Positions 3,101-17,528 of a stretch of 64,000 nt of DNA are shown one piece after another (positions within the stretch are counted from its first letter, which is position 1; every line of letters starts with the position of its first letter). The notes beneath the pieces are model-generated. The model was not told the DNA's origin. It ran no database searches and saw only the letters and a program-made list of their open reading frames with translations. Both the position numbers and the translations under genes were made by a program. This DNA is from an uncultured Spirochaetales bacterium (GTDB lineage Bacteria > Spirochaetota > Spirochaetia > Sphaerochaetales > Sphaerochaetaceae), in NCBI GenBank assembly GCA_949285145.1, contig CASDXQ010000001.1, positions 1 through 64,000 of the forward strand, read 5' to 3'.

Positions 3101-5941
3101 TCAAGATTTTTCCTTTCTTTTTCCGTCCTTGTCGAAATCAACACGTTCATTATCCTCATCAAGGATCACAGGCTGCCCCTCAATGCTGGCAAGCTTGTAT
3201 GTGACAGTTGTGGAAACACCGGCCTCCATCTGAGTCACACCGAGCAATGACGTCGAGCCCATTACCGTATGAGTATTGTGCGTGATGATTATGAACTGGC
3301 TTGTCTGGCTGAAATCCTGAAGAACAGAAAGAAAGTAGCCAATGTTCTTGTCATCAAGAGCCGCATCGATCTCATCCAGAATGCAGAACGGACTTGGTTT
3401 GACAAGATATGTCGCGAAAAGCAGAGCGACCGCTGTCATGCTTCTCTCTCCGCCCGAAAGAAGGGTCAGACTGATGAGTTTCTTTCCCGGCGGCTGTGCG
3501 AAAATATCTATACCGCTTGTGAGTATGTTCTCCTCGTCGGCAAGAGTTATCTCAGCTCGTCCTCCGTTGAAAAGACGCTTGAACATTGCCTGAAAATTGT
3601 CGCTTATCTGCTTGTATGTCGAAAGGAACATTTCCTCACTCTTCTGCTGGATTTCGGTAAGAACCTTCTCAAGATCGGCCTTTGCCTTGTTGAGATCATC
3701 CAGCTGCTTTGTGTAGAAATTATACTGTTCCTCGACTTCCTTGAAATCATCAATTGCCATATGATTGATGTTCGGTCCTAGAGAAGCGATCTGCTTCCTG
3801 ACTTCATCAAGTTCATTCCTGATGAGAACTTCCTCAGGAAGATCATCTGATTCAAGTCTGTCCTGATATTCATTCAGACTTCTGTTGTAAGTGTTGAAGA
3901 AGCTTGTAAAAAGCATCTTTATCTGATCATCAATCTGGCTCTGCCAGAGTTCTGTCTTTTCTATTTCTGTCTTGAGAGTCTGTATCGTCTCTATCGTCCT
4001 GTCCTTTTCCGCCTCCCTTGAGACAAGAGCGCAATTGAGCTGCGATATCTCATCTTTGACTGCAATGAGATCTTCTTTGAGTGATTCGATTCTGGCACTC
4101 AGATCCTTTTTCTCATCATCAGTCGCTTTAAGACTGTCACCGATGGTTTCTATTCTCTGGGAGAAGAAGCGCAGTTTATCCTCGCTGTCTTCCAGATTGA
4201 CCGTATTCTCCTCAATTGTTCTCTTGAGATTTTGAACAATCGTCTTGAAGGACTCAAGTCCTGCTTTTATCGAACTTGCCTTGATCTCCATGGATCTGAC
4301 TGTTTCCCTGAGCCCCTCCACTTCCTGGGAGAGAGAGGAAATCTCAATACGGGCCTGTGCAATGCGCTGGCGGCTCTTCTCGATTCCGGCTCTGCACCTT
4401 TCCTCATTCTCCTCAATGGTTCTTTTCTTTGTCAGAAGTCCTTCGGGAGCAAGAAGTGAATCAATGAAAGGAGGCACAGCAGCCTTGTAGGAATCAAATG
4501 AAGTCCTGAGAGACTCAAGAGATTCGAGAATGGAGGTGAAGTCGGATTCAAGCTTTTCCCTTATATCGCTTCCCTGTGGAAGTGATGAATAGAAAGAAAG
4601 CTTTTCCCTTATGCGGCGGCACAGGGAGTCAAGCCGTTCATTGAAATTGTTTTCCCCCTCCTTCCTCTTCTGGCAGGAATACTCTTCACCCATCTTCTGG
4701 TCAAGTTCCAGAACGAGATTCTCAATGACACTCTTCAGTTCATCGGAAAGGGATGCGGTCTCTCTCTCAAGAGAAAGGATATTTTCATCTTCTTTTCTGA
4801 CAAGCTCTTCAAGAGTGCTGATTTTCTCAAGATCATCCGCAATCATTCCGTTCGCACGGTTTATCTGTTCTTCCGCTTCCTCGAGAATCTCTTCTTTCTC
4901 GCTCATGCTGGCCTGATTCGTATCAAGTTCAGCCTTATCACGGTTGATTATGCTTTTCAGCGACTCAATGGTATTCTCACTTTCCCTCTGGTTCCTCAGA
5001 TACTCACGGTACTGTTCCTCAAGCATCCTGACTCTTTCATTGCGGCTTCTGATGGCCTCTTCCGCCTTGTTGATATTCGTCTGGATCTCGTAGGAACGTG
5101 TGTTCTTTTCCCTCAGGAGAATCTGTTCTTCCTCAATGTTGCTTTTGAAACTGTCAAGGGAAGCCATCAGGGCAGAAAGCTGTTTCTCGTTGCTGGCTTT
5201 CTGCTCAGCACGGAAGGTTTTGAGTCTGGTGAAAGTCTGAAGCTGGATGGCATGCAGCGTTATGTCAAGATCCAGCTGTCTTTTTATCAGATTGTTGTAG
5301 CTTATTGCCTTGTCAGCCTGACCCTTCAGAGTCGTATAACGTCTCTTCTCTCCTGCCAGCAGATTCTCGACCTGAAGTATGTTCTCATTCGTCCTGTCTA
5401 TTTTCTTCTGTGCTTCATTGCATTCAGCCTTGAAACGGGAAATGCCCGCAGCTTCCTCGAAAATGTAGCGCCTGTCTTCTGGCTTTGAAGAGAGAATCTG
5501 ATCGATCTTGCCCTGCTCGAGGATTGAATAAGCCGATTTACCGATACCGGTATCAAAGAAAAGCTCTCTGATATTCTTCAAAAGGCATCTCTGCCTGTTG
5601 AGATAATATTCGCTTTCTCCCGAACGGAACACCCTTCTCTTGATTTCGATCTCGGTAAGTTCTGTCTGGAGTTTGTGCTCGCTGTTGTCGATGGTAAGGG
5701 CAACTTCAGCAAACTGGAGAGGTTTCCTTGTATCGGTGCCGTTGAAGATGACATCTTCCATCTTTCCGGCTCTCAGAGTCTTGGTGGACTGTTCTCCCAG
5801 AACCCATTTGATTGAGTCGACAATATTGGACTTGCCGCAGCCGTTGGGTCCCAGCAGGCTTGTTATTCCGTCTGCGAAATCAATATGCGTCTTGTCCGCA
5901 AAGCTTTTGAACCCGTTGATATCAAGAGACTTTAAAAACAA
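3101..5941 (-). CDS. smc: Chromosome segregation ATPase SMC, short form
   Basis: SMC ATPases form the condensin core that organises the chromosome. The N-terminal ABC half has GPNGCGKSNIVDSIKWVLGE (residues about 32-51). The C-terminal half has the signature LSGGERSM and Walker B FCILDEIDAALDD, separated by long coiled coils rich in E, K and R. At 946 residues it is roughly 230 shorter than Bacillus-type SMC. The middle (about 400-520) lacks recognisable hinge motifs such as the GxxGxVxDLI and FLPL elements. The start is a TTG at 5941 with AAGGAG eight bases upstream. The gene heads the smc-ffh-rpsP run and is divergent from rnhB. Confidence 0.92.
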   Translation of the reverse strand: MFLKSLDINGFKSFADKTHIDFADGITSLLGPNGCGKSNIVDSIKWVLGEQSTKTLRAGKMEDVIFNGTDTRKPLQFAEVALTIDNSEHKLQTELTEIEIKRRVFRSGESEYYLNRQRCLLKNIRELFFDTGIGKSAYSILEQGKIDQILSSKPEDRRYIFEEAAGISRFKAECNEAQKKIDRTNENILQVENLLAGEKRRYTTLKGQADKAISYNNLIKRQLDLDITLHAIQLQTFTRLKTFRAEQKASNEKQLSALMASLDSFKSNIEEEQILLREKNTRSYEIQTNINKAEEAIRSRNERVRMLEEQYREYLRNQRESENTIESLKSIINRDKAELDTNQASMSEKEEILEEAEEQINRANGMIADDLEKISTLEELVRKEDENILSLERETASLSDELKSVIENLVLELDQKMGEEYSCQKRKEGENNFNERLDSLCRRIREKLSFYSSLPQGSDIREKLESDFTSILESLESLRTSFDSYKAAVPPFIDSLLAPEGLLTKKRTIEENEERCRAGIEKSRQRIAQARIEISSLSQEVEGLRETVRSMEIKASSIKAGLESFKTIVQNLKRTIEENTVNLEDSEDKLRFFSQRIETIGDSLKATDDEKKDLSARIESLKEDLIAVKDEISQLNCALVSREAEKDRTIETIQTLKTEIEKTELWQSQIDDQIKMLFTSFFNTYNRSLNEYQDRLESDDLPEEVLIRNELDEVRKQIASLGPNINHMAIDDFKEVEEQYNFYTKQLDDLNKAKADLEKVLTEIQQKSEEMFLSTYKQISDNFQAMFKRLFNGGRAEITLADEENILTSGIDIFAQPPGKKLISLTLLSGGERSMTAVALLFATYLVKPSPFCILDEIDAALDDKNIGYFLSVLQDFSQTSQFIIITHNTHTVMGSTSLLGVTQMEAGVSTTVTYKLASIEGQPVILDEDNERVDFDKDGKRKEKS

Positions 5942-14371: not shown

Positions 14372-14400
14372 TTTATAGCAGAAAGTCAAACTTTCGGCAA
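14372..14400 (-). promoter_or_regulatory. Promoter of tRNA-Thr
   Basis: Minus-strand TTGCCG (14395-14400), 17 bases, TATAAA (14372-14377). It abuts the stop codon of the pmbA relic. Confidence 0.55.
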
Positions 14401-14401
14401 C

Positions 14402-14482
14402 TTACTCTTTACCGGTAACTGAAAGGAATGTGACAAGTATGGAAGGACTGCATGTCATGAATGGTGAGAAAGTCACATCAAA
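14402..14482 (-). pseudogene. Relic of the pmbA 3' end
   Basis: Read on the minus strand, this 81-base piece encodes FDVTFSPFMTCSPSILVTFL followed by SVTGKE and a stop. This matches the last 26 residues of PmbA (FDVTVSPFRTGSPSILVTSL then SVAGKE) encoded at 16188-16268. In DNA, 14401-14483 and 16187-16269 differ at eight of 83 positions by my hand alignment. Similarity stops abruptly upstream, and there is no start. It is a partial duplication 1.7 kb downstream of the intact gene, on the other side of a two-gene Omp/lipoprotein cassette. Confidence 0.88.
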
Positions 14483-14565
14483 CGGTGTTTACTGAGGCAG
14501 CATCTGGAACATCCTGAGCCTTGCCGGCCAGCGAATTTCATATGAAAAATCCGTATCTCTTAACA

Positions 14566-15186
14566 TCAGAACAAGACCACAGATGCGATCAGAGATGGTG
14601 TAATTACAAGTGTTGAACCGTCCAGCGAATGTATCAGAGGTTCTGAACCTCCTGTTGAGTGCTCAGCCCAGTGAACAGGGGCATAACCCAGAAGCAGTGA
14701 TGCATCCACCCTTATTTTCCCGGTGATGCTGTACCCTATTCCAGTCTCGACATATGCTCCTATGCTCAGCCATTTGTAATCGAGATTGCCGCACGACCAT
14801 TGCCTGTTCTGTCCATACATTATTCCGGCATCAAGACTGAGAAGCAGCTTCGGCATAAGAAAATGATTATAAAGCAGACCTAACTGAGCAAGTGTCCTGT
14901 TGACTCCATCCGTGAATTCCTTGGCTGTTCCCTGCTCGAAGAAGCTGTAACCTGGATCGAGCCTTGCTGTGAACGACAGGCCGAATCCATCACGTTCGTC
15001 AAAGAGGAACTGCATTTTCAAAAGCAATTCCATTTCTCCGCGTAAAGCCGTATTCTGAAAATCGGAATCATAGGCATCAAAACTGATATCGAAGCGGGAT
15101 GCAAGACCTCCGGACACACTGAAGTCCAAAGCATAGGCAGACAGGGCTGAAAACAGAATTGCAAGAGTGAGGATGACTTTTCTCAT
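14566..15186 (-). CDS. Probable small outer membrane protein
   Basis: A 206-residue exported protein with a clear signal peptide (MRKVILTLAILFSALSAYA, then LDFSV). The mature part alternates polar and hydrophobic residues in strand-like stretches, has many G, Y and F, and ends SLIASVVLF, an aromatic C-terminus typical of beta-barrels. I do not recognise a family. It overlaps the upstream LRR lipoprotein gene by four bases (ATGA). It is probably controlled by the homopolymer-containing promoter of that operon. Confidence 0.75.
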   Translation of the reverse strand: MRKVILTLAILFSALSAYALDFSVSGGLASRFDISFDAYDSDFQNTALRGEMELLLKMQFLFDERDGFGLSFTARLDPGYSFFEQGTAKEFTDGVNRTLAQLGLLYNHFLMPKLLLSLDAGIMYGQNRQWSCGNLDYKWLSIGAYVETGIGYSITGKIRVDASLLLGYAPVHWAEHSTGGSEPLIHSLDGSTLVITPSLIASVVLF

Positions 15187-15977
15187 ATGCCTGCCTCCTC
15201 ATCAAGATATACAAGGCTGATATTTGAATTAGCTGAAGTCATGTATCCATTCCATTCTTCCTTGTTCCAGCCTTCAGGGACAGGGTCATTCTGTTTCCAT
15301 GGTACGTAAACTGTGATTTGACGGTCAGGATCTCCGAGTATTTTGCTGCCTACACTTGTGAGACTGCCTGGAAGTTTCAATGAGTTGATGCTCGTATTGC
15401 TGAAAGCATTATCCCCTATTGTCTCAAGCTGTTCAGGCAGTATGATCTCCTCAAGCTCACTGGCATTCTTGAAAGCATTATCACCGATTGCCTTGATTCC
15501 ACTTTGAGACATGTCAATTTTCCGGACATTGCCCGAGTAATCTGTCTTGCTTTCAATTATTTCCTCAACCGTGTCACTACTGATTTCCAGAGTTCCAATA
15601 TTGGCATCGTTGAAAACATCAAGACTCAATTTGCGGATATTTGCATCGAAGATCACTTTCCCTGCATTGAAGAGACCGGAAAATGCAGAGTCCTCCAGAT
15701 ATGTGATATGTTCAGGAATGTACAGTGTCTCTACATTAACACTGCCGAATGCATCGGTTCCAATCGCAGTTACAGGCAGATCCCAGAAATGGTCAGGTAT
15801 CACGATGGTTTCAACCGTTTTGTAATAGAAGTATGAGATATCGTCAAGCACAAGTGAATTCCCGTCTGCACCTAATCGGTATGTGTAGACACCATCAGTA
15901 TAGATGAAACCGGGATCATCCTCACACGAGGTGAGGAACACCATTACAAGCAATGCATAAATTATGATGCGTTTCAT
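15183..15977 (-). CDS. BspA-type leucine-rich repeat lipoprotein
   Basis: A 264-residue lipoprotein with signal peptide MKRIIIYALLVMVFLTSCED and lipobox LTSC. The mature protein carries about four to five LRR_5 (BspA/TpLRR) repeats, seen as IPDHFWDLPVTAIGTDAF, LYIPEHITYLEDSAF, IKAIGDNAFKNASELEEI and QLETIGDNAFSNTSI. Such surface LRR proteins in Treponema and other oral or gut bacteria bind host matrix or other bacteria; that role is inference here. GGAGGGG precedes the ATG. Its promoter contains G9 and T9 tracts. Confidence 0.85.
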   Translation of the reverse strand: MKRIIIYALLVMVFLTSCEDDPGFIYTDGVYTYRLGADGNSLVLDDISYFYYKTVETIVIPDHFWDLPVTAIGTDAFGSVNVETLYIPEHITYLEDSAFSGLFNAGKVIFDANIRKLSLDVFNDANIGTLEISSDTVEEIIESKTDYSGNVRKIDMSQSGIKAIGDNAFKNASELEEIILPEQLETIGDNAFSNTSINSLKLPGSLTSVGSKILGDPDRQITVYVPWKQNDPVPEGWNKEEWNGYMTSANSNISLVYLDEEAGI

Positions 15978-16004
15978 TTCCCCTCCATTTTCACTTTTGA
16001 CTTA

Positions 16005-16038
16005 AAGATACCCCCCCCCAAAAAAAAAGTATTGTCAA
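16005..16038 (-). promoter_or_regulatory. Homopolymer-spaced promoter of the LRR/Omp operon
   Basis: On the minus strand a perfect -35 TTGACA (16033-16038) is followed by ATAC, T9, G9 and then TATCTT (16005-16010), a possible -10. The spacer is 22 bases as sequenced; the usual optimum is 17. Slippage in either tract would change this spacing. The start codon lies 27 bases after the -10 box, with a normal GGAGGGG ribosome-binding site. Confidence 0.6.
16011..16028. repeat. C9/A9 homopolymer tract (G9/T9 on the minus strand)
   Basis: Nine C at 16011-16019 are directly followed by nine A at 16020-16028. It is the longest G/C homopolymer I see in the window and lies exactly between promoter boxes of a surface-protein operon. 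Confidence 0.95.
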
Positions 16039-16103
16039 GAAAACGATTCTTGAGGAATCAGAATTGATACTGATTTTTACACAGCATTCCAAAGATATCA
16101 CAT

Positions 16104-16144
16104 AAAACAAAAGGCTAACGCTTTTCAAACAAAAAGATAGCCTT
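16104..16144 (-). terminator. Terminator after tldD-pmbA
   Basis: Minus-strand AAGGCTA pairs with TAGCCTT over a 20-base loop and is followed by TTGTTTT. Moderate strength; placed 43 bases after the pmbA stop. Confidence 0.55.
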
Positions 16145-16187
16145 GAAAATCAAAGAAAAAGAGAATTGAATCCTTTATCTTCGCAGC

Positions 16188-17528
16188 TTACTCCTTACCG
16201 GCAACTGAAAGGGATGTGACAAGTATGGAAGGACTGCCTGTCCTGAATGGAGAGACAGTCACATCGAACTCCAGATCATCCGCTATTGCGCTTATATTCT
16301 CAAGAAGCTGAAAGAAATTTCCGGCAACAGTAAAACCATCAACTGGCTCCATCACTTTTCCGCCGGCAATTCTGAAGCCGGATGATTCAATGGAGAAATC
16401 TCCGCTTACCGGATCCGCTCCTGCATGGAATCCTTTCATGCCTGTGACATAAATTCCATCCTTGCATTCCTCAAGAAGTTCGTCAAAGGATCTTGAACCT
16501 TTTTCCACATAGAAAGAAAAAGGAGAAATGATGCTGCCGGCACTTGTTGAAGCTCCGTTTCCTGTACTTTCACATCCGGCTTTAAGAGCCCATTGACGGT
16601 TGTAAAGCAGAGTCTCAAGACGCCCGTTTCTGATCACATGCTTCTTGAAAGTCGCTCTGGCATCTCCATCATAGGTTTTCTGCATCGAGTATCCCGGATA
16701 AAGAGGGTCGTCAACAAGAGACAGGAGAGGAGATGCGATCAATTTCCCCATTTTTCCCTTGTATGGGGACAGACCCAGAAGCGCGTTTTTGCCAGAAAAT
16801 GCGCAGGAAAAAGCAGAAAGGAACATATTGAAACATTCAGGAGAGAATACAATTTTGTAGACACCGCCGGAAAGCTGCCGTGCATGAAGCTTTCTTACGG
16901 CTTTCGTGACTGTCTCCCTCATATCGAGATCCGGCACGTTACCTTCTTTTGCGCAAAATGCAGTTCTAACCTCATTCCCGTCTTTCACTACCACCTGACT
17001 TGCAAGATAGCTTGATGAAAAACTGTTTGAAAGGAACAGTCCCATGCTGTTTACAAGAAAACTTTCTCCGCGGCTTGCTGCGATATCGCTGCCTGTACCC
17101 TCACCGACCCTGCTGTCACTTTCAAAAAGAACTTTCTGGGTTTGCAGGAGAACTTTCTTCATCTCAGAAGCCGTACATGTGTATGAGGAGGGCGCATTCT
17201 TCTCTGGATATTTCATGTCTGTGAAATATATCTCCGGATCAAAAGAGGGATCCTTCTCTTTTATGGCAGAATTCTCATAAGCTTTTCTGACAAGAAGGGG
17301 AATTATTTCCTTATCAACCCTGTCACTCCTCACGCTTCCTTCCCTGCCTTCATAAATCAGACGGAGAGTGATGCCATAATCCTGAGAGGATGATGACTCG
17401 ACAAGTTCATAGTTTATCATGGAAGCTGATAGAGAAGATTGCGATGAGACAATGAATTCCCATTCATTCACACCTATTTCACTGCAGGCTCTGTCAACTT
17501 CAGCTCTGATCTGATCAATGTTCTTCAT
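16188..17528 (-). CDS. pmbA: TldD/PmbA family protein PmbA (TldE)
   Basis: PmbA (TldE) is the non-catalytic partner of the TldD metalloprotease; the pair matures peptides such as microcins and acts on modified peptides. The 446-residue protein contains the RGESFLVNSMG, YDGDARATFKKHVI, ALKAGCESTGNG and GMKGFHAGADPVSGDFSIES motifs of the family. It lacks the HExxxH zinc motif, as expected for this subunit. The start codon is one base after the tldD stop. The last 26 codons are duplicated at 14402-14482. Confidence 0.93.
   Translation of the reverse strand: MKNIDQIRAEVDRACSEIGVNEWEFIVSSQSSLSASMINYELVESSSSQDYGITLRLIYEGREGSVRSDRVDKEIIPLLVRKAYENSAIKEKDPSFDPEIYFTDMKYPEKNAPSSYTCTASEMKKVLLQTQKVLFESDSRVGEGTGSDIAASRGESFLVNSMGLFLSNSFSSSYLASQVVVKDGNEVRTAFCAKEGNVPDLDMRETVTKAVRKLHARQLSGGVYKIVFSPECFNMFLSAFSCAFSGKNALLGLSPYKGKMGKLIASPLLSLVDDPLYPGYSMQKTYDGDARATFKKHVIRNGRLETLLYNRQWALKAGCESTGNGASTSAGSIISPFSFYVEKGSRSFDELLEECKDGIYVTGMKGFHAGADPVSGDFSIESSGFRIAGGKVMEPVDGFTVAGNFFQLLENISAIADDLEFDVTVSPFRTGSPSILVTSLSVAGKE

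Follow-up and report, generated by a model that had tools for sequence, protein, structure and literature searches.

What is known of poly-G phase variation in spirochaetes comes mainly from the syphilis agent, where it was tied to immune evasion. In tp0126 of Treponema pallidum, an OmpW-like gene, a poly-G tract lies in the promoter spacer and expression is best at a spacing of 17 nt (PMC7864442). The length of a poly-G tract between -35 and -10 likewise sets surface-protein expression from porA of Neisseria meningitidis, for which graded output was measured over the range of 9G to 11G (PMC3639595). The tract of tprL, with 7–11 G in vivo, lies immediately before the start site, where it overlaps the -10, and does not work as a spacing switch (PMC7864442). 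Homopolymer counts have been tabulated for cultivated treponemes (PMC8049484), and no promoter analysis was found in the accessible part of that survey. Our literature search, thin on subscription journals, found no paper on such a promoter class in gut spirochaetes and none on phase variation in Sphaerochaeta.

Here we describe a promoter in a 64-kb stretch of DNA from an uncultured gut spirochaete; the whole stretch is called the window. We consider it likely, with good confidence, that this sigma70-type promoter is a spacer-length phase switch of an operon for a leucine-rich repeat (LRR) lipoprotein and an Omp-like protein.

Results

The promoter has a composite spacer of T and G runs

An earlier note on this DNA had described a perfect TTGACA, a 22-base spacer made largely of T9 and G9, and TATCTT, and the coordinates on the minus strand confirm this description exactly. 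The following features were read from the sequence, with Pfam support for the two genes.

16033–16038, minus strand: -35 hexamer TTGACA, perfect; TTGAC is likewise placed at 41 of the 140 G tracts of the genus
16032–16029, minus strand: ATAC, the first spacer bases after -35
16020–16028, minus strand: T9, one half of the composite spacer tract
16011–16019, minus strand: G9 spacer tract, adjoining -10 on its upstream side
16005–16010, minus strand: -10 hexamer TATCTT, 4/6 to TATAAT, 22 bp from -35
15980–15986, minus strand: Shine-Dalgarno-like GGAGGGG
15183–15977, minus strand: 264-aa BspA-type LRR lipoprotein, lipobox LTSC, ORF intact; PF13306 (LRR_5), 91 bits, cut-off 27.7
14566–15186, minus strand: 206-aa predicted secreted beta-barrel-like protein, ORF intact; PF13505 (OMP_b-brl), 21.6 bits, below the cut-off of 28.7

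From 16038 to 16005 the minus strand reads TTGACA ATAC TTTTTTTTT GGGGGGGGG TATCTT, so that ATAC, T9 and G9 make up the 22-nt spacer, and 33 nt separate the tract end from the ATG (15977) of the LRR lipoprotein gene. Both runs, whose lengths are those of one assembly, reach the slippage-prone range of about eight or more identical bases. They sit between recognisable -35 and -10 hexamers, as in spacer-length switches of the porA and tp0126 kind; the tract stops before TATCTT, inside the spacer, with no overlap of -10 as in tprL. The promoter drives a protein that is exported or on the surface, to judge from the lipobox and the LRR_5 repeats. Of the two genes named in the earlier note, the LRR lipoprotein is thus well founded and the Omp label is weak. 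The 3' end of the LRR gene and the start of the Omp-like ORF share a 4-nt overlap. A sigma70 scan limited to 16–18-bp spacers missed the promoter because its spacer is 22 bp, and the two matches that it gave elsewhere were at chance level. A 7-bp inverted repeat, TCAAGAA-TCGTT-TTCTTGA (16033–16051), overlaps the -35 and is a possible regulator site.

Long G tracts are rare in the genome

By run count the window holds a single G9/C9 run, and a first-order Markov simulation gave an expectation of 0.08 G or C runs of at least nine per 64 kb. The whole 2.06-Mb genome, in a 61-contig assembly, has seven G/C runs of at least eight.

Window 16005–16038: spacer tract before a lipoprotein gene
C10:47677: spacer tract before a lipoprotein gene
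C10:25641: in-frame tract at the 5' end of a lipoprotein ORF, with T9 G9 inside the signal peptide
C47:402: in-frame tract at the 5' end of a lipoprotein ORF
C2:7455: tract with a large lipoprotein gene about 50 nt downstream; no clear -35/-10
C7:83526: tract at the 3' end of a long ORF, on the opposite strand
C50:18580 (G000): unexplained; (TG)n runs directly into G10, a compound repeat without clear gene context

In four species, a G9 (C9 on the coding strand) lies near the 3' end of a long ORF with a GGDEF-like end, where slippage would alter the C-terminus (L056 around 4026–4035; G015:C2:124571; G008:C3:133153; G014:C28:296876).

The same layout recurs at lipoprotein genes across the genus and the phylum

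The surroundings of all 140 tracts of at least eight G were analysed in 16 genomes of the genus, the window's own and those of 15 other species. TTGAC was found up to about 20 nt upstream on the same strand at 41 of them, against 1/140 for GTCAA in the same upstream range and 2/140 for TTGAC downstream. In 37 of these 41 cases a TAnnnT -10 followed the tract, at a distance from the -35 of 15 bp (8 cases), 16 bp (17), 17 bp (4) or 19 bp (4), with one case each at 20, 21, 22 (the window) and 25 bp. The natural spacings cluster at 15–17 bp, which is indirectly consistent with an optimum near 17 bp; with a mode of 16 bp, the spacer of the window is the second longest of the matched set. Two layouts were observed: either the tract adjoins the -10 (TTGACA-N6-10-G8-13-TAnnnT) or it adjoins the -35 (TTGAC-G8-10-N8-9-TAnnnT). 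A strict lipobox test was passed by 28 of 40 downstream ORFs, compared with 6 of 45 ORFs in the window. Inspection by eye added five lipoproteins that start with GTG/TTG or have an unusual lipobox, and two ORFs with ordinary signal peptides, bringing lipoproteins or secreted proteins to about 35 of 40. A Pfam scan of ten downstream examples detected LRR_5, Big_2, Listeria-Bacteroides repeats, beta-helix and pectate-lyase-like adhesive domains and a solute-binding domain; several of the ten matched no family. Tract lengths in the genus peak at nine (G8, 42; G9, 68; G10, 24; at least 11, 6; n = 140), unlike random runs, which in the Markov simulation drop about fourfold per added base.

To survey the phylum, the pattern TTGACN{5,14}G8TA was searched in 393 sampled Spirochaetota genomes with the reversed pattern as control, giving 282 matches in 86 genomes against 6 for the control. 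The matches were concentrated in two groups, another genus of the same family (g3), with at most 11 per genome, and family f3, with at most 20; they were nearly missing from the small-genome family f5 and from f29. Among the matches listed for a similar pattern in named genomes, single matches in many phyla predominate; several Treponema records including T. bryantii are among them, and this listing served to name examples, not to describe a distribution. With one example taken per genome of the phylum sample, most downstream genes were again lipoproteins. The same architecture thus occurs at other loci and in relatives beyond chance, and its recurrence throughout the genus and in further families of Spirochaetia, set against nearly empty orientation controls, strongly supports the reading as a phase-variable promoter. 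Since dozens of genes for surface lipoproteins in related species share this layout, the window locus very probably belongs to a set of many switches that vary the cell surface by turning on and off at random.

These counts bear on whether the tract could be a chance homopolymer or an assembly artefact without function. Assemblies are error-prone at homopolymers, and T8G8 elsewhere in the class lies mostly outside promoters, but 41 tracts against 1 in an orientation control in the 16 genomes, 282 matches against 6 in the phylum and the expectation of 0.08 for the window leave this explanation scarcely credible for the locus, and very unlikely for the poly-G promoter class as a whole.

The two-run design was also searched for. 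No second promoter with a T–G two-run spacer was found in the genus. T8G8 was rejected as a general promoter motif: among its 28 cases in 297 genomes of the class, TTGAC was seen by eye within 40 nt upstream at the window only. Most of these T8G8 cases are non-promoter, and the directional asymmetry against the reversed control G8T8, which was found 0 times in the same 297 genomes, is unexplained.

In one genome of the genus, G013, a shared 74-nt repeat terminates four contigs (C1:451297, C13:79, C18:82 and C6:135879), each time on the upstream side of a G9 tract and exactly 4 nt from it, and two further contigs end, at their left ends, in the inverted end of this repeat. Two loci show apparent 3-bp target duplications (CTA and GAC), and the orthologous promoters in G015 are uninterrupted. 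The repeat looks like an element, putatively of the IS3 type, that inserts at poly-G promoter tracts.

Tract and gap lengths vary among members of the genus while the hexamers are constant

Among members of the genus, tract and gap lengths differ and the hexamers are constant. One coding tract with orthologues in two neighbouring species has G8 in the first and G11 in the second, between flanks that are 91–92% identical, and promoter orthologues across neighbouring species mostly have an unchanged G number. This last observation would also fit a fixed structural or regulator-binding element, such as a rigid G tract or a site beside the inverted repeat TCAAGAA-N5-TTCTTGA, acting with no length switch. 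Such an element could draw further on the overlap of the inverted repeat with the -35 and on the precedent of tprL, whose tract overlaps the -10 and acts without spacing (PMC7864442). On the other hand, gap and tract length vary among members while the hexamers stay, and the same genome has G tracts inside lipoprotein ORFs, where only a frame effect makes sense. We therefore regard a fixed element as highly improbable.

A homologous promoter elsewhere in the genome is spaced at 17 bp

A promoter at C10:47677 is homologous to that of the window, with 77% identity across promoter and leader (E 1.7e-6). It reads TTGACA-ATACTTCC-G9-TACTTT, its spacer is exactly 17 bp, and its orthologue in G015 (G015:C20:28320) retains both the G9 and the 17 bp. 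The two are like the window promoter in having a near-identical -35 region and leader and a G9 adjoining the -10; they are unlike it in the 17-bp spacer and in a CC in place of the T run, and the gene downstream of C10:47677 encodes a solute-binding-type lipoprotein. In the window, T7 replaces this CC, a net gain of five bases. This comparison favours the phase-variable reading, and C10:47677 likely shows the working spacer length.

Under the proposed mechanism, the T and G runs would gain or lose bases during replication, and the change in run length would shift both the distance and the helical phase between -35 and -10. The altered geometry would switch or grade transcription of the LRR lipoprotein and Omp-like genes. 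With T9 and G9 as assembled, the 22-bp spacer is about 5 bp too long and the predicted state of the promoter is off or weak, whereas run lengths giving about 16–18 bp would turn it on. If the rule from tp0126 with its optimum of 17 (PMC7864442) applies, the 22-bp promoter should be off or weak. The expectation that a loss of four to five bases would activate the operon is arithmetically right (22 minus 4–5 gives 17–18). The anatomy of the promoter, its recurrence, its bias in orientation and its association with lipoprotein genes are thus shown, while slippage at the tract, an off state and a surface role are inferred.

Since the spacer is 22 bp against a mode of 16, reaching 17 would take several slippage steps. 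The promoter could instead have decayed, its T run having grown past the working range so that it is dead in this lineage and the tract a relic. The distance of 22 bp from the genus mode of 16, at which one slippage step cannot restore 17, and the 17-bp layout of C10:47677, which is probably ancestral, speak for decay. However, the hexamers, the Shine-Dalgarno sequence and both ORFs are all intact, adjacent slippery runs ease multi-base changes, and other members likewise stand at 19–21 bp. We judge decay unlikely, and retain the spacer-length switch.

The promoter and its two genes lie in a species-specific cassette

At the 3' end of pmbA, the operon forms a species-specific insertion. Its surroundings are as follows.

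14484–16182, unstranded: species-specific inserted cassette with the promoter and the two genes; in five congeners tRNA-Thr(cgt) comes directly after pmbA
14397–14483, minus strand: left direct repeat, remnant of the original pmbA 3' end, 90% identical to 16183–16269
16183–16269, minus strand: right direct repeat, the present pmbA 3' end
16111–16144, minus strand: candidate rho-independent pmbA terminator, a hairpin followed by TTTTGTTTT, folding z -1.5

The direct repeats that flank the cassette are 87 nt long with 90% identity, and the left one runs on into the ancestral pmbA–tRNA-Thr junction. The Omp-like protein has no clear homologue among 118 other genomes of the family, one weak match aside, and no orthologues in the genus for comparison. 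Matches of the LRR protein in the genus are other BspA-like proteins of low identity, and no orthologous promoter was found there. The direct pmbA–tRNA-Thr(cgt) order in five congeners, the repeat carrying the ancestral junction and the lack of clear relatives of the Omp-like protein make it probable that the promoter arrived together with its two genes. Recombination between the 87-bp repeats could delete the operon and restore the ancestral junction. The candidate terminator folds modestly better than shuffled sequences, and a simple terminator scan did not report it; the hairpin and T-rich stretch (16144–16111) may end the pmbA transcript upstream and so separate pmbA from the operon. In G013, a different lipoprotein gene with G10 at its 5' end lies just past the same tRNA-Thr (L354 7047–7822), and the pmbA–tRNA-Thr–tsaD interval may therefore be a recurrent slot for switchable surface genes.

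Discussion

The mechanism considered here is already known; the organism group, the scale and the composite tract are new. A broader reading, to which we give about even chances, is that in gut Spirochaetia (the Candidatus Aphodenecus genus, a sister genus of the same family and Treponema relatives) a single promoter design, with poly-G between the -35 and -10 of lipoprotein genes, underlies a large phasome of up to 20 such promoters per genome, and that the window promoter is a T-plus-G version of it on an acquired cassette, with a wider spacing range than one tract would give. A spacer with two runs could allow a wider range of lengths; since no second T–G spacer promoter was found in the genus, it may also be one lineage's accident. 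The interest lies in the scale of poly-G promoters in Spirochaetia. The same design at many lipoprotein genes of gut relatives suggests that it is a strategy by which spirochaetes widely diversify their surface, perhaps to counter phages, competitors or gut immunity, and offers many natural promoter variants for testing the spacing rule.

Among known systems, porA is like the window promoter in its poly-G between the -35 and -10 of a surface-protein gene, and is unlike it in coming from an unrelated organism and gene and in its measured output. The tprE/G/J and tprL genes of Treponema pallidum share variable poly-G near surface-protein promoters, but the tprL tract overlaps the -10 and leaves the spacing unaffected. 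Of the precedents first cited for this locus, porA with its spacer G tract is therefore apt and the tpr promoters are less exact, and tp0126 joins porA as one of the better precedents (PMC7864442). It is a spirochaete promoter with a spacer poly-G that drives an outer-membrane protein. It differs in having a pure G tract and in belonging to a host-restricted pathogen, whereas the window has a T9 G9 composite of 22 bp; and tp0126 is a single locus studied, against many such loci in the window's uncultured gut genus.
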